IMG/VR virus record: IMGVR_UViG_3300021961_000603
Location: 1 to 24,730 of that record
Length of the DNA: 24,730 nucleotides
Strand: one strand, 5' to 3'
Origin: a virus
A program made the translations under genes and the position numbers. Below the pieces are notes generated by a model. It did no database searches. It saw only the letters and a program-made list of their open reading frames with translations, and was not told where the DNA came from. Positions 1 through 24,730 of the stretch are shown here, one piece after another (the first letter of the stretch is position 1; each line of letters begins with the position of its first letter).

Positions 1-3000
1 TGAGCGGGCGCTCGTTCTTCTTGACGCGCTCCTTCGTGAATCCGTCGTTGCCCTTGGCTACCTGTTGGCGGAAGTCACCGTCAAGAACATCGATTTCCTC
101 GAACACCATCGCATCCGGCACCAGCCACGAATCCATTTTCGCCGGCACATAGCCGCCACGGTACGTGACCGTCTGCCCATCGGGGAACGTGATGGTAAAC
201 GGCTCGGCCTTCACCTCCTTCATTCGGTAGCCGTTGCGGTCGTAGTGCATTTCCTGAATCAGCGGCAACAGCTCGTCGTACAGGTCCCACAACTTCTGCA
301 ACGCGTCAAAGTGCGCTTTGGTCGCCACCTCGTCGCGCACCATGCGGTTGACGAAACGCCACCAACCCGAGGTGTCCACCGTGCCGTCCGGGTTGACGGC
401 GGCTATCCCGCGCCCCACAAGGTTGTTGCGCAGGTTCTGCGAGTTGCCCATGTGCTGGAAGGAGCCCATGAGCTCGGCAATGCCGATGCCCCCGTTGCCG
501 TTGCCGTACGTGTAGGTGAACTCGGTCTCGGGATCGGCCTTGATCTTGCCCTTCTTCATGGGCACCGCGACCATGATGTCGCGCACCTTCGTGAGGTACG
601 TGACCCGCTTGTTCTTGTACACGTCCCACGCCTCGCGGACAGGACGGTAGATGTAGCGCGTGAACGGGCCGTCCTCGGCGCCGTCCATGGCGCGAGCCCA
701 CGCTCCAATGCGCCGCAACAACCCGCGCCCAACCATGAGCTGACGCATCGCGCGCTGCATGGTGCTCGGCGCCATCGATTCGCCCGGCGCTTCGCCCGGG
801 GCCGGCACGCCAAGCTCCTGCATGCGCGCGTTCAGCGGCTCGAGCGCGGTGGCAACATCGGCCAGCTTGCCCTCGACACGGATTTGCTTCTTGCGCTTGG
901 CCATGTTCCAGAGCGCTGTGACCGCGTCGTTGAGTCCGTCAAAGTCTTCGAGGGTGAGGTCCTTGTAGTTGACGGGGTTCTCCTGCGCGCGCACGAACAG
1001 CGGCAGCATCTCGTTGAGCGTGCTCCGGCTGTACTTCGCCATGAGCTCGAGGTACTGCGCCGGCTCCTGCTTCGCGCGCTCAAACCCGTGTGCGGCGAGC
1101 AAGCTGCGCGCCACGTCCACGAGGTCCATCATCCGCGTCTTCGCGATCTTCTTGTCGGGGCGGAACATCTTCGCCCACTTCTTCTTCGCGGCCTCCACGC
1201 GCCTGCGAATCTCGACGGCCTGCTTCGCCATCTCGTGGTACAGCAGCTCGCGGCGCTTCGCCACGATCGCGGCTTGAGCATCGCCTCGCTTCCATGCGCG
1301 AATGGCCTCGCGGCGGGCATCGGCCTCAAGCGCCTTGAACTCGCGCGGCTTGATCTCGCGGATCTTCTTGCCGGCGAGGATCTGGCGTGCCGCCTCGCGC
1401 GCCACCTCGATGTGCTCCATCGCAGTGCGGGCAGCTTTGTCCAGCCAGCGCAGCTCGCTCGCGATGAACCTCGTGCGGGCCTTGTTGTTCAGGACCTGCA
1501 CGAGTGCGTTCTCCATGGCCTCGGGGGTGAACAGCTCCCCGTACTCTTCCTTCGCCCTGCGGTCGGTCTCAACCTCAATGGCCTCGTCCAGATCGGGCGC
1601 TCTGATGATGGCAAACACCATCTGTTCGCCAGACTCGAAGCCAAACAGCTCCGCGGCATCGTCCGGGTGCATGCCGTCGCGACGCAGCATTCCGCCACGC
1701 CCGACGCCCATGCGTTGCAACGCCTCGGCCTGTTGCTTCTGCCCCATCTGTTTCGGGAACAGCGCGCGCACGAGCTCGAGGCTCAGCTTGACGTTTGCAG
1801 TCGCCGGCTGCGTCGTGCCATCCGGCTGGATCAGCTCGCCCGTGCGCAGGTAGTGCATCAGCCGGTAGATCGGCTGCCGGCGCATGCGCTGCGCCACCTC
1901 TGCGTAGATGCCGGCGCGGACCTCGCGCGCCAGCCGGTGCACCTCCGCGAGCGCGCGCCCGGGGGCCCGGCGCAGGAGGCGCATCTCGTTGAGACGGATC
2001 TTGTCCATCTCGGTGATGGCCTCCTCGGTGGCCTCGCGGTCCAACGCTTGGTACTCCGCGAGCTGCTCCGCGGTCATCGGGGCGCCCTCGAGCGAGGTGA
2101 ACATGGGCACCATGTCGTTGGCCCACTGCGCCTGCTGAATCTGCTCCTCGGTCGCGAGCATGCGGTCGAAGAACCCGCGCACCTCGGGCGTAAGGCCCGG
2201 GAGGTCCTTCTTGAACAAGTTGCGGTACGTGTTGTTCAGGACCGTCGAGATCTGCTTGTACATCGTGCGCACCCAGTTGCGCACCGACTGGAACACGCGC
2301 TCGAGCTCGGTCGTGGGCGCCTTGCCCGTGGCCACGTACACTTCGCTGTTGTAGGCAAGCTGCTCCCAGTACGGCTTCTGGCCGGCAAAGCCCAGCGCGT
2401 CCCACTGTTGCAGGCGCTCGGCCATGGTCTGCTGCGCGGTCCCGATGTTGAACCAGTTGAGCAGCGTCGTGACCTGCTCGAGCACCCACGGCGACGCGTT
2501 CGGGTCGCGTGCCATCTCGAACAGCATCTGCTGGTAGCCGTGCGTCAGCTCGTGGAACCACGCGGTGACGTTGGCCTCGGGGTCAAGCGTGATCCTGTAC
2601 GTGTCGAGGTTGATCTTTGCGCGCGGCCTGCGCGGCTCGCCGGCGCCTTCCGCGAACAGCACGGGCTGCTCGTCGGTGTGCGTTTCCTTCGCAACATCGG
2701 CAATCAGCCGAGCCCGCGTAGCGGTGTCTCCCTTGTTGTAGATCTTGATTGGCAAGCCAGCGCGCTGCACTTGCTCAACAAGCTCGGCTTCCGCGTTGGA
2801 AGGCAACACAACAGCGGCGACTTCGTCCAGCTTGACGATGCGTGGCGTCTTGGATTCCCAGTACGGCTGGGTGTCCGTCATCAACACATTGATGATGTCG
2901 GTGAGCTGCTTGCTGATGGACTCAAGAAGTGCAGGCTGCTCCTTCTTGATGTCGAAGGCTGCTTTCTCAAGCACGTCCATGAGCGGCTTGACGCTAACCT

Positions 3001-6000
3001 TCTTGAGTTGCCGCACGTCAAACTTGCGCCCGATGTCGCCAGACTCCTGCATGGCAACAATCTGGTCGCGCACGTTGTCTATGATGTCTCTGGATAGCTT
3101 GCGAATAGCACGATACTCCATCAGCGCCACACTCTCGGGATGCTTGTTGGCCATGTGCTGCGCCAACTCCATCAAACTGTCTCGCAGATTTGCGGTTTGA
3201 CCCGACAGTCGCATCCACTTGTCGTCGGATTGCGTGCTGATAATGTTTCCGCCACGCAAACGCGTGCGTTGGCGCTGCATCTCGGCCAACGACTGAAACT
3301 GGCGAGCCAGCTCTGCACGCACGATTGTATTCTCTGTTGCGCGGATTTCCGGGTAGAACTCAACCATCGCAGCCAGCACGTTTTCTGGCGTAGCTTCAAC
3401 TTGCTTGCCACCGACGGTGACGAGCCTCTCAGTATCGGCAATCCCGTACTCTTGAATGCGCGCAGTGGCAAACGCCTTGAAGGATGCTTGCGCATCTTCG
3501 GCGCTCATACCGAGATCCGTCTCGACGCGATCCATAGCGTCCGCGATTTCTTTCGCATACTGCCTACTTGAATCCGACAGCTTTGTCAGCACCCCCAACT
3601 TCTTCAGCCACAAAGCCCTCAAGCCTGTGGTGGCTGAGTGTATCAAGCCCTTGCGCGTCAACTCATTTGTGCTGCGAAGCAATGCCAACAAGGTTTTTTC
3701 GTCGGGGATTTGCCATTGAGTCAAGTACACAAACTCGCGAGCTTTTCCCCTGCCAAAATCAGAGGTCCCGACCCCCATCATTTTTGTGATTTCTTGCGCA
3801 TCATTGGCCATGTACATCACGGCCTGATTGATCTCCTCGTCCGTCATCGACCGCATCTGCAGGGTCGGGTACACCGCAGAGAAGATGTCAAAGTCGAACG
3901 TGGCAGCGCCTTTGATTGGATCGACAACGTCACGACGCATCACCAGCGACACGTCGCCAAACTCTGCTACCATCTCCTGACCGGTTCTGATCACGGCCAC
4001 GCTGGGCATCGGCAGCTTTCCGGTCTTGAGTAGTGCCGGCAGGAACTGCTCATGGATTGCATGCACGGCAACCATGTCCATGACGTTGCCGTCCTCGTCG
4101 AGCATCTCCGCGTTGAGCTCGCGCTGCTCGGGCGTCTCCAGTGCGCGCAGTTGCTCGAGCGTTGCGGGAGGTCCCTCGAGGTTCAGCACCTCGGCGCCCG
4201 GGAGCACGGCCAACGCGGCATCGATCTCCGGGTTGCCCGTGGTGATGAACTCGATGGGCAACAGGTCTGCCTTTTGATCGGCAAAGCCACGATCCACCAG
4301 CGGCTTGCCCTCGACACCCGGGCGGAAGTTGACCCACGAGTTCTGGCCGCGCGTCTCGGTCGTGAGCGCCCAACGAGCCCACGGGCTGCGGGTCATCTCC
4401 ATGTGGTTGCGCCACGCGGCCTCCTCGCCCAGCGGGCCGAACCCGACCGTGGTCAGCGAGTGTGCGTAGTAGTCGTGCACCGCGCGCAGCAGGTCGTTCA
4501 TCAGCAGCGGACGGCCGTTCATGTCCGTGCGCCCGCTATCCGCGAGCAACGGGTGCCCGGTGTAGTCCACGCCCGGCTTGCCGAACTGGTCAGGAATGGT
4601 GGCGTAGATCCACATGTGGTTCTCGCTCAGCACGTCCTGCCGCATCTCCATCGACATCTTCTTGCTGGGGTACGGCTCGCCCTTCTTGGCAAACACGTAC
4701 AGGCGCACCTCGCCTTGCGCCGGCATGCCCTGCACCGGCTCCGCGGTCGCCTTCAAGGCTTTGCGCAGCTTGGCCACGTTGCGGTTGAACGCGGCCTTGT
4801 GCTTGGCCGCGGCCTGCGGATCCATCGGGCCCTCGAGGCCTTCGGTCCACAGGTCTGCCGGCGCACGGTACTCAACCTCGACGCCGCCCGAGTGCACCTT
4901 GACCGGGATGCCGAGAGCCTTCGCGGCTTCCTGCACCTGCTCCACGGTCGTCCCTGCCGGGAGCCCGTACACGTCTGCAAACGCTTCGACGCGGATGGGC
5001 AGCGCGTCAAACTGCTCGAGCAGCTCGGTGGCCAACTCCTCGTACGCGCGGCGCACGTGCGGGTCGTCAAGCGCGTTGAGGCGCATGGCCTCGTACGCGT
5101 CTGCGATGCGGCGCTGCCACTCGCGCTGGTCTTGCGTGATCATCGGCGCCTGCGGGCTGCCCATGACCTCGCGGCCGGCAAGGCGCGTGGCTACGCGTTG
5201 CGCGGCGCGGCTGGCTACGTCGTCTCGGGGCGGTGAAAACTTGCCCGGAATCGCGTCGTATCCGGCGGTTGCTCCGGGGCCTGAACCGTAAGCCCAAAGG
5301 CGCTGTACACTTTCCTCAACCCCTCCTCGAACTCCTTGAGCTCCTCGTCTGATAGCTCCTGCGTCTCGGAGGGAACGGATTGCTTTGAAGGTTGCATCGG
5401 TGAACTCCTGTCGTTTGGCTGCGTCCTTGGGATCGCCAACGAAGTATACCTCGAGCGAAGTGCCATCGGTCGTGAAACCGGAAAGCCCGGATTCGCGTGC
5501 CAGCTTTTCCACCTCCGCCCGTGGCATGGGCTTGTTGAGGTGGATCTTGACGACCTTCGTGTTGTAGCTGCCGTCTGGATTCTTTGTACCGAAACGGCCT
5601 TCGCTCGCCTGCCGCAGGTGGATCTGCTGCTGGTCGAACATGCGGGCAAACTGCCGCAGGGCCACGAGCGCCGCCGGCCGGTCCGCGTTCGTGAACGAAA
5701 GCGAAAGACCCAGCGAAGGCTCGAGGCCGCCGGCATGCAGGCCCGTCGTGCGCGCGACCGTGATCTGCGCGCTCTCGACCCCGTGCAACAGGTACTTCAG
5801 CGACTCGTTTGCAATCTCCTGCAGCAGCACCTGCGACTCTAGGTTGCCGGCGTTGGCTTCCTTCGTCAGCTTGTCGAGGCCCGGGATGTTGGGCGTCGAG
5901 CTCGAGATGTTGACCAGCACGTCGCTGCGCGCGGCCAGCCACTTGCGGTGCTCGCGCAGCGCATCGAGACGCTTGGCAGCGCGGCGCATGTGCTCGAGTT

Positions 6001-9000
6001 CCTCGGGCGTGCCCACGTACACCGAGCCGGTGAGCGCGGTCTCCTGCCGCTTGGCGACCTCGACCGCGAGCCCGTTGAGCACCGTGCCGTAGGCTTCCTC
6101 GTCAAAGAACTGACGGTAGGTCGGGTCCACGAACAGCTTCTCGAAGTCGGGCGTGGCTGCGATGTCCTCGTGCAGCAGGCCCCCGCTGGTGATCAGCGAC
6201 TCCGCGGTCACGTCCTGACCAGCCTTCTGCAGGTCCGAGACCTTCTCGTACAAGGCCTTGGAAAAGCTCCACACGGTCTCCTGAATCTCGCGGCCCTCCC
6301 ACTCGAGTTGGCGAGCGGCGCGACGCGACTGCAGGCTCATCGCAAGGTAGCCAACGCCCTTGCCGGGCATGCCGGCGCCCTTGTCGGCACCGAACTCCTC
6401 CTGCGCGATTCCGCTGTAGTTCGACATCCACGCGTCGTTCGTCACCTCCTCGGTGTACGCCGCGACATCGTCCAGCAGGTTGAGCATGAACGAGTTGACC
6501 TTCGGGCCCGAGAGCACGATGCGCTCCGGGTTCTCCATGATCAGCGCTCGGTACGCGTTGTTCTTCCATGCGCCGAGCACGGACTTCTCGCCCTTATCGC
6601 CCTGCACGTTCTCGCCCATGATCTTGAGGATCTGGCGCGCATTCGTCGGGCGGCCGGCCTTGGTCCATGCCCGCCACACGCGCAGAGTGTTGGCAAGGTT
6701 GGCCTCGACGCTGGTCTGCGGGCTCAGTGCCGCAAGCAACGCTGCAAACCTGCGGGCGTCGGCGCCGAACACGCGCGTGATCGCAGCGGCGCTGAGCTTG
6801 TACCAGCCCTTCTTGGCGATGCCGGCCTTGGCGACCGCGGCCATCTCCTGCGCGGTTGGCATGGCCTCCATGAGCTTGCGCAACTGCTCGGCGCGATTGG
6901 CTGCGTCATCACCACCGGAACGCACCAGTGCGGCGAGCTCGTCCTCGCGCAGGTTCTCCACCATCGCCTTCATCTTCGGGTCGCCCTTGACCATCACGGC
7001 CAGCGCTTCCCGCTGCCCCGGGGTCATCTTGACCATCTCGGGCGGCACGGTGGAGCCGTACTGCTTGCGGTCCTTCTCGAACACGTCGGTGTCGTCGTCT
7101 ACCTCGGTGTCCCCGTCGTAGTCCTGCGTGGCCTTCAGATGCGATGGCACCTTCGGGATCTTGGGCGCCTCGAGCTCGCGCTCGGCAACGGCACGACGCT
7201 GCGCCAGCACCTGACGCTCGGCCAGATCGGCCATGCGCGCCTCGACGTTCAGCTTCTTGGCGTCGTACTCGTCACGGATCTCCTGCGTCGCATCAGGCGC
7301 CTCTGCCTGCGCACGAAGGGGCTCGAGCGCATCGATCTCTGAGAGCAGCCCGTCCTGCTCTTCGGCAAGGATCTGCAACTCCTCGACCGCGGTGGGATAC
7401 GGCTGCTTGCCGTCTGCCGGCGGCGCGACCACGACATCGAGGCGGCCCCACTTACTGTTGCGGAACGCCTGCATGGGCGTCGTGGGCTTGCCGGCCTTGC
7501 TCTCGTTCGCGGCCATCGTGACCATCATGGCCTGCAGGAGCTGCGCGCCCTGCTTGCGCTCCGCGTCGTTGCCGAACGCCTTGGCTGCGCGCATGCGCTC
7601 GAGCACCGTGTCGTAGACCTGCTGCGATTCCTCGGCCCACGTGTCCCGGTCGGTCTTGCGCTCCTGCAGTGCGGCCTTGGCCTGCTCGATGAGCTTCTGC
7701 TTCTCGCGCTCGTAGGCCTGCGACTCCGCGGCCGACATCATGCTTGGGTCGAACTTGAGGTGCGGGCGGATCACGTCCCCGATGGGGAGCGCGTTCAGGT
7801 ACGTGTAGTACTGGCTCGTCGAGATCTTGACGTGCGACTCCACGGGCGGACCAACACGCGTTGCGGTCTCGATCGCGTTGGCCACCTCGGGCGCGCGCTT
7901 CCGAATCTCCTGCAGCATGCTCGCGGACACGCGCTCACGGTCGGGCAGGATCTCGGCCGTGCCTTCGGCAGCCGCGCGACCCTTCTCCATGGTCAGATTG
8001 ACCAGACGATCCCACGCGCCGGCGAGCTGCTCGACGTTGATGTACAGGCTTTCGGCGCCGGTTCCCTGCGTGACCGCGTCCATGTACTGGGCGAACAGCT
8101 CAGGGTTGCGCAGGCGCACCTGCTCGCGCACGGTCTTGTCGTGCAGGTCTTCGATAAGCTGGCCGGCGTCGGCGCCTCGAGCTGCACGCCGCATATTGCG
8201 GAACAACTGAACGCTGGGCCCGACCGGAGTCATCCACGCGCTGACCATCGCGCTCTGCTTCACCGTCTCGACCAACTGATCCACCAACTGCTCGCGCGAG
8301 AGCTGCGTCTTCGTGTCCGCAAGTTCCATGAAGAACGTGCTGGTCACGTCCTGCGCGACCTCCTGCACCGTCTCGAACGCGGTGTCCTTTCCCCACGTCC
8401 ACAGGAACTCGCGCGCGGCTCGACCCGAGGTCATCGGGGTAACCATCTCCCGAACAATGCGCTCGATGGCTTCCTTGCCGACGTTGCGCATCAACTCGCG
8501 GCGAATCTGGCCGCCCGCGACCGGCGCTGCAGTGTCTAGTGCGGCCTGCAAGGAACCGCTGACGGGTGCCCAGAAGCGCGCGTCCTCAACCGGAATCCCG
8601 CGTTTCACCATCTCCGCGAGGTCGGTGCGGGTGTACTGCTCGAACAGGGCCTTGGTCATCTCGACCGTGCCCATGGTTACGAAAGCACCCATGGCGGTGA
8701 ATGGAGCTGCTGGAGCAGTGACGCCCGCGGCGGCAGTCACAGCGGCAGTCGCCACGGCTGCGCCACTGCCTACAACCGCACCGCGAAACATCGGCTGCGA
8801 CAAGAACGCTGCAGAAAGCGCCGCCTGCGCGAAGCTGCTTACCGGCCCAAGCGCTTCAGCGTCTTTCTCAAGCTGATGCAGCCGGGCAATCTGTTCGGGC
8901 CGCACGTCTCCCGTTTGCCAGAGATAGCCAATCTGCTGCTTCTCGAGCTCGATGTCGTAGAGCTGCATGGCTTTCGTCCAGCCCTCACCGAAGTAGCCTT

Positions 9001-9607
9001 CCTCGGTGAACATGCGTGCCAGCTCCTGCGCGCGCGCGGGAATGCGGCTGGGGCGCAGCCAGAACGGCTCGAGGCCTTCCCACCACTTCACCGACTCCTC
9101 GATCTTGGACAGGCTCTCAAGGCGATCCTTGGCGATGCGTGCAAAGGGCGGCGAGTCGGAGATGGTCTGGGCCAGCTTGGGGTACTCCTTGGCCAGCTCC
9201 AGCTTCTCGGCTTGGCGCTTCTGGTAGATGCGCTTCGCCACCTCTGGGTTGCGGAGAACCGTCTCCTCGGGCAGGTTCAGCTCCTTGCCAAGTCGTTGCG
9301 CCTCACCGATAACGTCCGCGGAATCCGGGCCGCGAAGCGCTGCATCCCACACGCGCATGAACGCGTCCTCGGGCTCGCGCTGGCGCTCCAGCCGGCGCTG
9401 CCGCATGGCCTCGAGAAACGGGTCCTGTTTCTCGGGATCCTGCGGGGCAGCCAACCCCACGGGCGCCACCATGGGCTCTTGCACCTGCTCCTGCGGCTCG
9501 GCAGCCATCGGGGCCGGCGGCTTGGCCACGAGCAACCCGTCCTGCTGGGGCTCCTGCGGCTGGGGCTGGATCGGGTCGAGAGTCGGGTCAAGTTCTTCGG
9601 GTTGCAC
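1..9607 (-). CDS. Giant polyvalent inner-virion protein with zincin metallopeptidase domain (3' end outside window)
   Basis: Open from GTG 9607 to the left edge: at least 3202 codons with no stop. The GTG follows AAGGA by 6 nt, and an in-frame TAA lies 12 nt upstream. Domains by residue: Pro/Gln-rich tail 1-45; helical region; Ala/Val-rich hydrophobic segment about 253-322; charged coiled coil about 610-820; a conserved block about 905-1120 with ALSPQTSVE (960-968), LSGPKVNSF and TNDAWMSN; a block near 1293 (GLEPSLGLSLSF); a block 1585-1780 with RGQNSWVNF (1753-1761); zincin HELTH 2352-2356; long helical region 2450-2990; C-terminal block with GNGNGG (3035-3040) and RGGYVPA. These blocks recur in the large polyvalent proteins of phages and conjugative elements, some annotated as PLxRFG-domain proteins. 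Its place after the gp14/gp15-like genes suggests an ejected core protein of T7 gp16 type (inference). It probably protects incoming DNA or modifies the host, but no specific activity is shown. Confidence 0.9.
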   Translation of the reverse strand, partial: MQPEELDPTLDPIQPQPQEPQQDGLLVAKPPAPMAAEPQEQVQEPMVAPVGLAAPQDPEKQDPFLEAMRQRRLERQREPEDAFMRVWDAALRGPDSADVIGEAQRLGKELNLPEETVLRNPEVAKRIYQKRQAEKLELAKEYPKLAQTISDSPPFARIAKDRLESLSKIEESVKWWEGLEPFWLRPSRIPARAQELARMFTEEGYFGEGWTKAMQLYDIELEKQQIGYLWQTGDVRPEQIARLHQLEKDAEALGPVSSFAQAALSAAFLSQPMFRGAVVGSGAAVATAAVTAAAGVTAPAAPFTAMGAFVTMGTVEMTKALFEQYTRTDLAEMVKRGIPVEDARFWAPVSGSLQAALDTAAPVAGGQIRRELMRNVGKEAIERIVREMVTPMTSGRAAREFLWTWGKDTAFETVQEVAQDVTSTFFMELADTKTQLSREQLVDQLVETVKQSAMVSAWMTPVGPSVQLFRNMRRAARGADAGQLIEDLHDKTVREQVRLRNPELFAQYMDAVTQGTGAESLYINVEQLAGAWDRLVNLTMEKGRAAAEGTAEILPDRERVSASMLQEIRKRAPEVANAIETATRVGPPVESHVKISTSQYYTYLNALPIGDVIRPHLKFDPSMMSAAESQAYEREKQKLIEQAKAALQERKTDRDTWAEESQQVYDTVLERMRAAKAFGNDAERKQGAQLLQAMMVTMAANESKAGKPTTPMQAFRNSKWGRLDVVVAPPADGKQPYPTAVEELQILAEEQDGLLSEIDALEPLRAQAEAPDATQEIRDEYDAKKLNVEARMADLAERQVLAQRRAVAERELEAPKIPKVPSHLKATQDYDGDTEVDDDTDVFEKDRKQYGSTVPPEMVKMTPGQREALAVMVKGDPKMKAMVENLREDELAALVRSGGDDAANRAEQLRKLMEAMPTAQEMAAVAKAGIAKKGWYKLSAAAITRVFGADARRFAALLAALSPQTSVEANLANTLRVWRAWTKAGRPTNARQILKIMGENVQGDKGEKSVLGAWKNNAYRALIMENPERIVLSGPKVNSFMLNLLDDVAAYTEEVTNDAWMSNYSGIAQEEFGADKGAGMPGKGVGYLAMSLQSRRAARQLEWEGREIQETVWSFSKALYEKVSDLQKAGQDVTAESLITSGGLLHEDIAATPDFEKLFVDPTYRQFFDEEAYGTVLNGLAVEVAKRQETALTGSVYVGTPEELEHMRRAAKRLDALREHRKWLAARSDVLVNISSSTPNIPGLDKLTKEANAGNLESQVLLQEIANESLKYLLHGVESAQITVARTTGLHAGGLEPSLGLSLSFTNADRPAALVALRQFARMFDQQQIHLRQASEGRFGTKNPDGSYNTKVVKIHLNKPMPRAEVEKLARESGLSGFTTDGTSLEVYFVGDPKDAAKRQEFTDATFKAIRSLRDAGAIRRGAQGVRGGVEESVQRLWAYGSGPGATAGYDAIPGKFSPPRDDVASRAAQRVATRLAGREVMGSPQAPMITQDQREWQRRIADAYEAMRLNALDDPHVRRAYEELATELLEQFDALPIRVEAFADVYGLPAGTTVEQVQEAAKALGIPVKVHSGGVEVEYRAPADLWTEGLEGPMDPQAAAKHKAAFNRNVAKLRKALKATAEPVQGMPAQGEVRLYVFAKKGEPYPSKKMSMEMRQDVLSENHMWIYATIPDQFGKPGVDYTGHPLLADSGRTDMNGRPLLMNDLLRAVHDYYAHSLTTVGFGPLGEEAAWRNHMEMTRSPWARWALTTETRGQNSWVNFRPGVEGKPLVDRGFADQKADLLPIEFITTGNPEIDAALAVLPGAEVLNLEGPPATLEQLRALETPEQRELNAEMLDEDGNVMDMVAVHAIHEQFLPALLKTGKLPMPSVAVIRTGQEMVAEFGDVSLVMRRDVVDPIKGAATFDFDIFSAVYPTLQMRSMTDEEINQAVMYMANDAQEITKMMGVGTSDFGRGKAREFVYLTQWQIPDEKTLLALLRSTNELTRKGLIHSATTGLRALWLKKLGVLTKLSDSSRQYAKEIADAMDRVETDLGMSAEDAQASFKAFATARIQEYGIADTERLVTVGGKQVEATPENVLAAMVEFYPEIRATENTIVRAELARQFQSLAEMQRQRTRLRGGNIISTQSDDKWMRLSGQTANLRDSLMELAQHMANKHPESVALMEYRAIRKLSRDIIDNVRDQIVAMQESGDIGRKFDVRQLKKVSVKPLMDVLEKAAFDIKKEQPALLESISKQLTDIINVLMTDTQPYWESKTPRIVKLDEVAAVVLPSNAEAELVEQVQRAGLPIKIYNKGDTATRARLIADVAKETHTDEQPVLFAEGAGEPRRPRAKINLDTYRITLDPEANVTAWFHELTHGYQQMLFEMARDPNASPWVLEQVTTLLNWFNIGTAQQTMAERLQQWDALGFAGQKPYWEQLAYNSEVYVATGKAPTTELERVFQSVRNWVRTMYKQISTVLNNTYRNLFKKDLPGLTPEVRGFFDRMLATEEQIQQAQWANDMVPMFTSLEGAPMTAEQLAEYQALDREATEEAITEMDKIRLNEMRLLRRAPGRALAEVHRLAREVRAGIYAEVAQRMRRQPIYRLMHYLRTGELIQPDGTTQPATANVKLSLELVRALFPKQMGQKQQAEALQRMGVGRGGMLRRDGMHPDDAAELFGFESGEQMVFAIIRAPDLDEAIEVETDRRAKEEYGELFTPEAMENALVQVLNNKARTRFIASELRWLDKAARTAMEHIEVAREAARQILAGKKIREIKPREFKALEADARREAIRAWKRGDAQAAIVAKRRELLYHEMAKQAVEIRRRVEAAKKKWAKMFRPDKKIAKTRMMDLVDVARSLLAAHGFERAKQEPAQYLELMAKYSRSTLNEMLPLFVRAQENPVNYKDLTLEDFDGLNDAVTALWNMAKRKKQIRVEGKLADVATALEPLNARMQELGVPAPGEAPGESMAPSTMQRAMRQLMVGRGLLRRIGAWARAMDGAEDGPFTRYIYRPVREAWDVYKNKRVTYLTKVRDIMVAVPMKKGKIKADPETEFTYTYGNGNGGIGIAELMGSFQHMGNSQNLRNNLVGRGIAAVNPDGTVDTSGWWRFVNRMVRDEVATKAHFDALQKLWDLYDELLPLIQEMHYDRNGYRMKEVKAEPFTITFPDGQTVTYRGGYVPAKMDSWLVPDAMVFEEIDVLDGDFRQQVAKGNDGFTKERVKKNERPL
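2300..2640 (-). other. Zincin metallopeptidase domain within the giant protein
   Basis: The HExxH zinc motif is read as WFHELTHGYQQ, with the histidines at residues 2352 and 2356 and the catalytic glutamate at 2353 (codons at 2554-2540). About 60 residues on, the segment WEQLAYNSEVYVATGKAP contains E2415 and E2422. In phage polyvalent zincins the third zinc ligand is a glutamate in this position before a conserved GKAP, so E2422 is the likely ligand. All key residues are intact, so an active protease is expected. It could process the giant protein itself or a host target; the sequence does not say which. Confidence 0.85.
2700..3950 (-). other. AT-richer segment inside the giant gene (possible exchanged module)
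   Basis: Residues about 1886-2303 of the giant protein are encoded by DNA with visibly more A and T than its flanks. The row 3661-3720 counts 28 G+C of 60, against 44 of 60 for row 6001-6060. Codons such as TTG, ACA, AAA and GCA become common. The reading frame stays open and protein-like: helical, with motifs such as EVLTKL-type and RLRGGN segments but no family recognised. It lies directly before the zincin domain. A module acquired later than the rest of the gene is the simplest reading. Confidence 0.5.
5215..5397 (-). CDS. Candidate overprinted small protein (60 aa) nested in the giant gene
   Basis: ATG at 5397 and TAG at 5217-5215, in a different frame from the giant gene. AGGAG lies 7 nt before the ATG. 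The product is acidic near its N-terminus, with a likely helix at ELSDEELKEFEEGLRKVY, and has no membrane segment or recognised family. Third codon positions are G or C in 43 of 60 codons here, against 27 of 60 for the giant frame over the same bases (only 4 of 20 in its second and third blocks of ten, with AGA and many CGA codons). The first 20 giant-frame codons after the stop return to 17 of 20. This is the pattern expected if the small frame is the one under codon selection. Alternatives: the giant frame has a relaxed linker here and the small ORF is chance, or there is a frameshift or sequence error at this point. Confidence 0.5.
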   Translation of the reverse strand: MQPSKQSVPSETQELSDEELKEFEEGLRKVYSAFGLTVQAPEQPPDTTRFRASFHRPETT

Positions 9608-22577: not shown

Positions 22578-22988
22578 CTAGGGCTCGCCGGCTTGGACGA
22601 GCTGCAGGCCCATGCGCTGGAGAGCCTCCGCAGGCTCCTGCGTGGTTACGTCCGAGTGGTTGAACAAGTCGGCGATCTGCTGCTGCGTCACCTGCACGCC
22701 GTATTGCACGCAAGCGTCGTAGAGCGCCTGCGGCTGGCCCATGTATACGTCAGTCAGCACCCAGTCGCCGTTCTCGTCGCGGGTCCACGACTGGAGGGGC
22801 ATCAACACCTCCCACTCGGGGCCGATGTAGCCGGTTGAGATGTAGTGCGTGGCCGGATCGCTGCCCGTAGCCGACAGCGGCGTGATCCACATGTTCGCGC
22901 CTGCGACGGGGCTGATGCCGACCGCAATGGTCTGCGCCACGGGCGCGTCGGCTGCGGTCACAATCATGTTGCGGTAGACATCGGTCAC
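22578..22988 (-). CDS. Phage protein of unknown function (136 aa), coupled to the LamG-type gene
   Basis: The sequence begins TDVYRNMIVTAADAPVAQTI, has a Gly/Ala-rich stretch at residues 23-45, a segment with HYISTGYIGPEWE near 48-60, and a C-terminal helix (QQIADLFNHSDVT). I recall similar proteins in tailed phages of GC-rich hosts, usually next to tail-fibre or appendage genes, without a known role. GTG 22988 overlaps the TGA of the LamG-type gene as GTGA (4 nt), with GGGGGTG as the SD. The close coupling suggests that it works with the appendage protein, perhaps as a chaperone or attachment partner (inference). Confidence 0.75.
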   Translation of the reverse strand: MTDVYRNMIVTAADAPVAQTIAVGISPVAGANMWITPLSATGSDPATHYISTGYIGPEWEVLMPLQSWTRDENGDWVLTDVYMGQPQALYDACVQYGVQVTQQQIADLFNHSDVTTQEPAEALQRMGLQLVQAGEP

Positions 22989-24730
22989 AGCGTCACCCCC
23001 GACTTTGAGGCCATGTAGCGTCTTGCGCTTCCACGATCAGCCGCAGATGGCAGCGTGCCCTTGCGGATGATCATGCCATACAAGTTCATGTTGGCTTGAT
23101 AGCCTGTTCCATACGAGTTCAAGCCAATGGTAGCTGGGTTTGTGTTACTTCCGGTTCCACTCAAAGTAATGTTTGCCGTTTGCTCAACTGCGTTGATTGC
23201 ATAGAAAACTTGCGATGCGGCAGCATTGACTCCCCATTCCATTACTTGAGGACGCCTTTTTGTAATCGTCGGGCCCGTTTGATAAGACTGACCGTCAGTT
23301 CCCCAAAAAATCATCAACTGGTTGGCAGAACTTACAAACAATCGAATGTTGTCTCCGGCGGGTAGAGACTTGCCCCAGATCACGTTGTAATCAGAAGCAC
23401 CCAAAGACTCTAAACCAGCCTGCATCCAGAAACTACCTTGCCCAAAGTTCATTCCATCCGTATCTGCGATAGTTAGCTTGTCATCCGCACCATCGAACGC
23501 GAGATACGGCCTGAACGGCTGCCCCGTGATCGTGCTCGTCGTGGCGTAGTCCGTCGCGGCGGCGATCCGCTGGTAGTCGCCTGCCGAGGTGCCGACGCGG
23601 AGGTCTGCGCCCCAGATGTAGATGCCGCTAGTGCCGTCCGTAGTGTAAGACGCAGCGTTCGGAACGGTTATTTGCGTCGGGGTTGCGTAAAAAGAAAATG
23701 TGGCTGGGTCTAGATTTGCACCAGTAGCAACGAACGATAGGTATGCGCGATACCAACCATTGCCAACGGAAGTCACGCCATATATTGCAGGTGGCGCGGT
23801 TCCGCCAACAACAAAGGATCCGTTGGACAAATCTACAGCCAAATGCGAAGAAGCTCCAGATCCTGAGTTGCTAAAAACAAAGGTCACAAAGCCGTATTCA
23901 GCAGCTTTGCAATACGCAGAAGCCGTATAAGTAGCCCCCACAGTTGCGGGGATGGCGTTGTTGTAATATGTGCGGCGCAACGACACACCCGAAGCTGCGT
24001 CTGGAATGATCTTGTCCGCTGTTTGCGTCGAGTCTGGAGCGACTGCAACATTTGTGCTGACGCTTGTGCCTTGCTTATTCCAAGCCCCATTATCAAACTG
24101 CTCACTATACGTCAGCAGGTTATACCGCGCCCGCAGCACCGGACGGGCTGCACTGCCTGTCTGGTAGGCGTGGTTGCCGTCGGGTGTAATGCTTGCTGTT
24201 GCTCCTGATGCCGTCCAAGTTTCGCCCGTTGCAGCCACAAATGTGGAACCGTTTGCATATAGCGTCGGATTGAAATCCACTTGCAACGTTGTTCCTGCGT
24301 AAACCTGTGCGCGATAGATGCGCCCGATGCAAGGCTCTGTAAACGCATTGCCAGTCCCAACAATGAGCTGCTGCGTGCTTGCGTATATATTGCCAGCAGC
24401 GGTGGAAACTGCTGCGCCTAACTGCGCCCAAGTTGTGCCGTTTGCGGAGGTGTAAAAAATAACCTCGCCCGTAGTGGCGTTGCGCGTTACGCGAATCCAG
24501 TTCAGTGAGCCTGCTGCGAAACCTGTTGCGGCGGTAGCAGTAGCTGTGGCAAACGTCGTAGACGAAGTGCCAAAAATAAGACTCAACTCTCCGGTAGTGT
24601 TGACCCGAAGCGCATATGCCATGTTCGAGCCGCCAGAATCACGCTTTGTGACCATGGACTGCGTGGCACCAGATGCCCAACTTTGCAGTGCCGCTTGTGC
24701 TCGAATGTCAATGTCGCCCGTGATTTGGTT
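22985..24730 (-). CDS. LamG/concanavalin-like appendage or receptor-binding protein (5' end outside window)
   Basis: Open from the right edge, so the ATG at 24655 is probably internal: upstream in-frame sequence (ITGDIDIRAQAAL, then SWASGATQ) continues the first domain. Order: LamG-like domain (AYALRVNTTGELSLIFG, IGRIYRAQVYAG) to about 150 codons; a carbohydrate-binding-like beta domain starting NLLTYSEQFDNGAWNK with YTASAYCKAAEYGFVTF; then a second LamG-like domain (YLAFDGADDKLTIADTDG, MNFGQGSFWMQAGL, LYGMIIRKGTLP). Such proteins bind surface glycans. Base composition is lower in GC than neighbouring genes (row 23161-23220: 26 of 60 G+C), which fits a host-range module acquired by recombination. 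It ends in TGA overlapping the next gene. Confidence 0.85.
   Translation of the reverse strand, partial: NQITGDIDIRAQAALQSWASGATQSMVTKRDSGGSNMAYALRVNTTGELSLIFGTSSTTFATATATAATGFAAGSLNWIRVTRNATTGEVIFYTSANGTTWAQLGAAVSTAAGNIYASTQQLIVGTGNAFTEPCIGRIYRAQVYAGTTLQVDFNPTLYANGSTFVAATGETWTASGATASITPDGNHAYQTGSAARPVLRARYNLLTYSEQFDNGAWNKQGTSVSTNVAVAPDSTQTADKIIPDAASGVSLRRTYYNNAIPATVGATYTASAYCKAAEYGFVTFVFSNSGSGASSHLAVDLSNGSFVVGGTAPPAIYGVTSVGNGWYRAYLSFVATGANLDPATFSFYATPTQITVPNAASYTTDGTSGIYIWGADLRVGTSAGDYQRIAAATDYATTSTITGQPFRPYLAFDGADDKLTIADTDGMNFGQGSFWMQAGLESLGASDYNVIWGKSLPAGDNIRLFVSSANQLMIFWGTDGQSYQTGPTITKRRPQVMEWGVNAAASQVFYAINAVEQTANITLSGTGSNTNPATIGLNSYGTGYQANMNLYGMIIRKGTLPSAADRGSARRYMASKSGVTL

Follow-up and report, generated by a model that had tools for sequence, protein, structure and literature searches.

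A conserved hidden gene very likely lies in the +1 frame of a giant virion-protein gene of tailed phages

Introduction

Genes contained in the +1 frame of another gene are already known in phages, as with Rz1 in Rz, the spanin genes, whose products are both needed by the phage (PMC5295617, PMC6139136), and overprinting in viruses in general has been reviewed (PMC8227390). Genes B, E and K of phiX174 are likewise overprinted in an alternative frame of an existing gene. The gene described here resembles Rz1 of phage lambda in being on the same strand as its host gene, in another frame, wholly contained and equipped with its own Shine-Dalgarno (SD) sequence and start. It differs from Rz/Rz1 in that it is not in a lysis locus, its host is a giant virion gene and there is no sequence relation. 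The spanin criterion (lipoprotein, signal peptide, lipobox) is not met by its 60-aa product, in which inspection of the sequence found no hydrophobic N-terminus, Cys, lipobox or export signal. Unlike phiX174, which has a small single-stranded genome, the phages considered here are double-stranded tailed phages, and their nested genes lie at domain ends or in the gaps separating domains of a 2000-3800 aa protein, often several per gene.

The host gene belongs with the polyvalent proteins of phages and conjugative elements (PMC5512222): LPD22, PBECR5 and DUF7178 occur in one giant open reading frame (ORF), all above curated cut-offs, and the polyvalent-protein criterion is met. In a text search, PMC5512222 did not mention overlapping or nested genes within polyvalent ORFs. 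Another close known system is Bordetella phage BPP-1, which has the same virion-protein gene order and whose bbp10 is homologous to the giant over its C-terminal 900 residues (about 30% identity). No similarity was found between bbp10 and the DUF7178-D2 region of the giant, and no nested gene was detected in bbp10 at the thresholds used. In the open literature that we searched, which omits many journals and preprints, we found neither the nested families reported here nor their host gene, nor their repeated use inside a single giant gene. In the annotated phage records examined, only the giant coding sequence is given and the nested gene is unlisted.

Results

A short reading frame with its own start signals inside the giant gene

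The stretch of DNA analysed, hereafter the window, comprises the 24,730 nucleotides of the virus record IMGVR_UViG_3300021961_000603, and most features discussed below are listed in Table 1. The giant gene is a mosaic with an abrupt change of codon pattern; its C-terminus links the window to BPP-1 Bbp10 and to the giants of many phages, and the other genes of the window form a podovirus virion block (major head protein, tail proteins, internal virion protein). No promoter, terminator or Rfam match was found. Two further stretches of the window were recorded in passing. Between 3000 and 4000 (giant residues about 1870-2200), in and past the PBECR5 nuclease-like domain, G+C is lower (55%), and the stretch looks like a more recent insertion in the giant. 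At 23836-23865, in the ORF 22985..24655 (-), an A+T-rich segment has both alternative frames outscoring the gene frame and is too short and ambiguous to call.

Table 1 Positions of the giant gene, its domains and the nested reading frames
Feature	Position	Strand	Description
Giant polyvalent/internal-virion-type protein	2..9607	-	3202 aa, incomplete at the contig end; relative of Bbp10 of Bordetella phage BPP-1
DUF7178 domain of the giant	6266..6823	-	Residues 929-1114; Pfam PF23802, E = 1.3e-9
D2 domain of the giant	5285..5929	-	Residues about 1227-1441; alpha/beta fold predicted by AlphaFold2 from alignment A6
SD-like AGGAG	5405..5409	-	7 nt 5' of the nested ATG; within the giant's CAG GAG (Gln-Glu) codons
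Nested overlapping gene	5215..5397	-	ATG (at 5397) to TAG (ending at 5215), 60 codons, 60 aa; in the giant's +1 frame; belongs to a conserved nested family
10-codon giant insertion AIRRGAQGVR	5327..5356	-	Relative to L106/L108; loop between the last D2 helix and the last strand
Giant motif RLWAYG	5285..5302	-	Last D2 strand, conserved in relatives; nested-frame reading AFGLTV
Nested A and nested B	Giant codons about 1271-1342 and 1554-1616 in L023		+1 frame
Tandem nested ORFs of L002	Giant codons 1538-1606 and 1608-1669		+1 frame

The nested ORF meets the criterion of lying wholly inside another coding sequence on the same strand and in a different frame, and has its own ribosome-binding site and start codon, which are retained in relatives. 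Since the nested frame in the window is open back to 5736, it is the ATG and not a stop that defines its start. In the AlphaFold2 model of D2, for which pLDDT is mostly 80-94 in this region, the nested gene begins in the last helix (model 237-256) and spans the last strand (271-282); the 10-codon insertion of the giant encodes the acidic start of the nested helix. A fold search with the D2 model returned low TM-scores only and named no family.

The nested product (MQPSKQSVPSETQELSDEELKEFEEGLRKVYSAFGLTVQAPEQPPDTTRFRASFHRPETT; calculated pI 4.8, 6.9 kDa) has one predicted amphipathic helix (residues 17-33, mean pLDDT 71), the remainder being without predicted structure. Database family and fold searches gave no match identifying it. 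A search of a defence library also returned no match, which is weak evidence as the library covers defence and not counter-defence.

Codon usage singles out the nested frame

G or C occupied the third position (GC3) in 43 of the 60 nested codons and in 27 of the 60 overlapped giant codons, with 17 of 20 in the giant frame immediately past the nested stop. The 60 overlapped giant codons contain one AGA and four CGA, in a gene with 4 AGA and 13 CGA among its 245 Arg codons. These values, together with the ORF coordinates and the spacing of AGGAG, reproduced everything measured in the sequence-only reading of this locus, which had inferred codon selection on the nested frame. That inference was right in outcome; the low GC3 of the giant arises because its third position falls on position 2 of the nested codons, which is normally G+C-poor.

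The signal was then set against chance by resampling the synonymous codons of giants and counting ORFs of 55-90 aa preceded by an SD and starting with ATG. Such ORFs arose 0.355 times per resampled giant and 31% of resampled giants had one, and this frequency led us to discard the combination of SD, ATG and ORF as evidence by itself. The codon content was far outside this baseline: the nested minus giant codon log-odds difference was +19.6, against -25.9 for the best of 355 chance ORFs, and the local +1 segment scored 26.2, whereas 200 resampled giants gave no more than 10.5. Nested-frame codon usage resembles that of real genes, the signal, which has no equal elsewhere in the giant, is strongest from ~5385 to 5255, within the nested ORF, and the minimum of giant GC3 along the whole gene is at the nested ORF site.

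The nested gene is conserved in diverged phages

No close relative of the window came up in the collections searched when the nested protein or the giant's middle part served directly as the query; weak tblastn matches of the nested protein were chance-like and were dropped. The giants collected first, by way of the conserved C-terminus, shared no sequence with residues 700-1550 of the window giant and therefore offered no direct test of the window ORF; other nested families emerged from them instead. Relatives of the region were reached via the conserved downstream module and then the region itself (35-57% giant identity), and were aligned on the giant motif RLWxYG.

In these diverged relatives, whose G+C ranges from 35% to over 60%, an ORF of 65-76 codons with an ATG start occupies the same place in the +1 frame, beginning 31-45 codons before RLWxYG and ending 22-45 codons after it. 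Examples are 68 codons long in L190 (giant G+C 35%), 76 in L186 and 69 in L108. The encoded proteins can be aligned (A5) and share a polar start, a helix, SGLTV and then an F-x-P-like tail, although this alignment is too little conserved for a family-wide search. They are 19-31% identical to the window protein, which fits the family in both features (Met, polar N-terminus, helix, the SGLTV-like AFGLTV and an F-x-P-like tail, SFHRP) and position (in the +1 frame across the last D2 helix, the RLWxYG strand and the following linker). L186, the closest relative, has an intact nested ORF, yet the codon-bias scan gave no signal there. The only relative with an in-frame nested stop is L209, whose giant is broken too; this locus (L209:5481-5870) comes from an alphaproteobacterial MAG and is what is left of a decayed prophage, with the nested frame still discernible.

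The start signals are conserved as well. In the relatives an AGGAG or GGAG lies 6-9 nt 5' of the nested ATG, usually in the giant's Y-x-G-D-P(N) codons, and the SD is weak in the L202 group. This usual site is absent in the window (GGC GAT ... AAG), where a new AGGAG and ATG are found about 10 aligned codons downstream. The new start adjoins the 10-codon insertion, so the length of the nested ORF is preserved in the window, and the retention of SD and ATG despite the relocated start suggests that initiation is what selection has preserved. A stop in the nested frame is found no more than about four codons 5' of the ATG in L187, L190, L192 and L106 and closes entry from further upstream in that frame.

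Both frames are under selection in the relatives

Because the window has no close relative, selection was measured in the relatives (35-57% giant identity) and not on the window ORF. As similarity of the nested proteins is by itself no proof where the giant frame is also conserved, we used a codon permutation in which the proteins of 11 diverged giants were held fixed and synonymous codons were redrawn 1000 times from each gene's own usage. Over 42 codons in each of the 11 giants no nested-frame stop was observed, against 14.0 ± 2.9 expected and a minimum of 5 in 1000 permutations; the +2 frame of the same stretch has 32 stops. The mean pair score of the nested alignment exceeded the permuted one with z = 14, and an ATG with an SD and 35 open codons was present in 10 of the 11 giants (expected 0.3, maximum 2). 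The permutation treats sequences as independent, and L192 and L106 are fairly close. Conserved giant residues (RLWxYG, F) force part of the nested similarity, for which the permutation corrects.

Third positions of the giant were also suppressed over the nested ORF. Between L192 and L106 their change was 0.17 over the nested ORF and 0.41 in the flanks (p = 1.3e-4), and between L202 and L205 it was 0.08 and 0.33, respectively (p = 1.7e-5). Purifying selection on the nested frame, with simultaneous constraint on the giant frame, is thus shown from sequence in the relatives. The earlier reading had proposed this comparison of synonymous sites and had held that homologues with nested stops or a lost start, in a conserved giant frame, would refute the gene. 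The opposite was found, with no stop in 11 giants, the ATG kept and the SD present in 10 of 11, and its suggestion that the nested frame may be a real overprinted gene is supported by the homologues.

Further nested families in related giants

A scan of 95 giants gave 56 ORFs with an SD, a start and a nested codon advantage, all of them in the +1 frame, and none in 475 shuffled giants. Across 153 giants, 95 SD- and ATG-bearing nested ORFs lay in the +1 frame where 24 were expected; in other long ORFs the count was 14 against 10 expected, and several of these 14 are truncated giants. The counts across giants include related sequences.

L003, L007-L030, L043 and L050 each carry two other nested +1 genes, A (MNAQDEHDYKMSKRR...MAEKFGF) and B (MENPQSLPNQEPEQAA...), which have an SD, are conserved and show suppressed third positions; both are present in the cultivated Limnohabitans phage DC33 (PQ492659.1), where nested A, of 71 aa, spans about 27781-27566 of the record. 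Among 26 close relatives, third positions were variable at 14 of 70 codons in nested A and 19 of 61 in nested B, compared with 125 of 207 between them and most positions elsewhere. A+T-rich giants (32-39% G+C; L034-L083, giant codons about 1297-1430) hold nested +1 ORFs of ~124-135 codons (MSYQYNPRSNQETHNEMMED...LESLEDLF). In 18 of these giants there was no nested stop over about 125-135 codons, where 7-11 were expected each, and third bases were identical in 87% of comparisons over the nested frame versus 69-74% elsewhere. For the L034 member there is a weak phrog_1371 match (E = 1.7e-4); none of the tested members of the nested families has a convincing family match.

Back-to-back pairs of nested +1 ORFs, each with its own SD and ATG in an operon-like arrangement, occur in L002, L135, L144, L172, L174 and L177. 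A basic nested family (PETEQDGIRAEALRRLRVRR...) lies directly before the IAxAYEAM module, and other strong +1 coding-like segments were noted at giant codons 2603-2635 of L108 and 1779-1820 of L186 (scores 26 and 24, respectively).

Profile searches placed 25 of 26, 45 of 45, 3 of 3 and 70 of 70 nested-family matches inside giant ORFs, the exception being the decayed remnant L209, and no stand-alone copy of these families was found among about 200 loci. A match of another nested protein to a Bradyrhizobium phage sits in an annotated peptidase T and was dropped.

Discussion

The nested gene is almost certainly real, because phages that are only distantly related have conserved it. We consider it very likely that 5397..5215 (-) is a gene with an internal start inside the giant; there are no expression data, and translation from that AUG is inferred. 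Ribosomes would start at the nested SD and AUG within the giant mRNA, and this internal initiation would yield a protein of about 60 aa. This small protein may work together with the giant protein, which is translated from the same message, as an assembly or ejection partner or as an inhibitor of an adjacent enzymatic domain. Confinement to the giant gene suggests such a partner, made in step with the giant. This role is inferred from location alone, since no database family or fold identifies the product, and we put it forward tentatively, as a proposal with clearly less than an even chance of being right.

A variant of function that is compatible with a real gene remains possible, namely that the product does not act on the giant and serves as a late protein in its own right, for instance one directed against host defence. 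That the protein is small and diverges rapidly (19-31% identity to the window protein among the relatives) would fit. Against it stand the strict confinement to the giant gene without stand-alone copies and, weakly, the absence of a match in the defence library, which omits counter-defence.

Programmed +1 frameshifting is very unlikely. Ribosomes translating the giant would slip into the nested frame and stop, giving a shortened giant with a new C-terminus, and the SD would act as the stimulator. SD-like sequences can stimulate frameshifting, the nested frame is indeed the +1 frame, and in the window it is open upstream of the ATG. In diverged homologues, however, the ATG shortly past the SD is kept, and in the window, which has lost the old site, an ATG is again present together with a new SD; several homologues have a nested-frame stop just upstream of the ATG. 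One frameshift would also leave unexplained the tandem nested ORFs, each with SD and ATG, of L002, L135, L172 and L177. Retention of the ATG, replacement of the start site as a unit and separate starts of tandem ORFs therefore make this explanation less likely.

It is also very unlikely that the constraint is on RNA (structure, packaging or regulation) with the nested ORF as a by-product. Suppressed synonymous change alone cannot separate RNA from protein constraint, and the missing promoter, terminator and Rfam matches neither help nor exclude this explanation. Nevertheless, the frame stays open, with the ATG and stop at its ends retained, in phages whose G+C spans 35% to over 60%, conservation of the nested amino acids exceeds that under codon permutation, and nested codon usage is gene-like.

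The other suggestion of the sequence-only reading, an old junction of two formerly separate genes now read through, with the nested frame as a relic, was not supported: the mosaic giant with its abrupt codon-pattern change would agree with it, but the giant frame is conserved (RLWxYG.G.GA) and continuous in intact relatives, a relic would not retain zero stops and suppressed synonymous change, and the conserved giant residues, with a helix and strand belonging to one confidently predicted domain, all but exclude a junction and show true dual coding.

For the nested gene with an internal start, a bolder reading extends to the wider group of phages. In many tailed phages, giant polyvalent virion genes may each hide between one and three +1 cistrons, which in some cases directly adjoin one another. 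Each cistron would belong to a specific domain boundary and code for a dedicated partner (e.g. a chaperone or inhibitor) of the domain next to it, the two being synthesised in step from one message. We regard this as speculative, the balance being narrowly against it at present.

In tailed phages, lysis loci are the best-known place for contained genes; the present case is a whole class of giant virion genes with conserved hidden genes that annotation has missed. If expressed, these would add unrecognised virion or assembly proteins to BPP-1-related phages and to many marine and freshwater phages, and they would show that the long stretches between domains of polyvalent proteins need not be idle linkers and can be moulded by a second protein.
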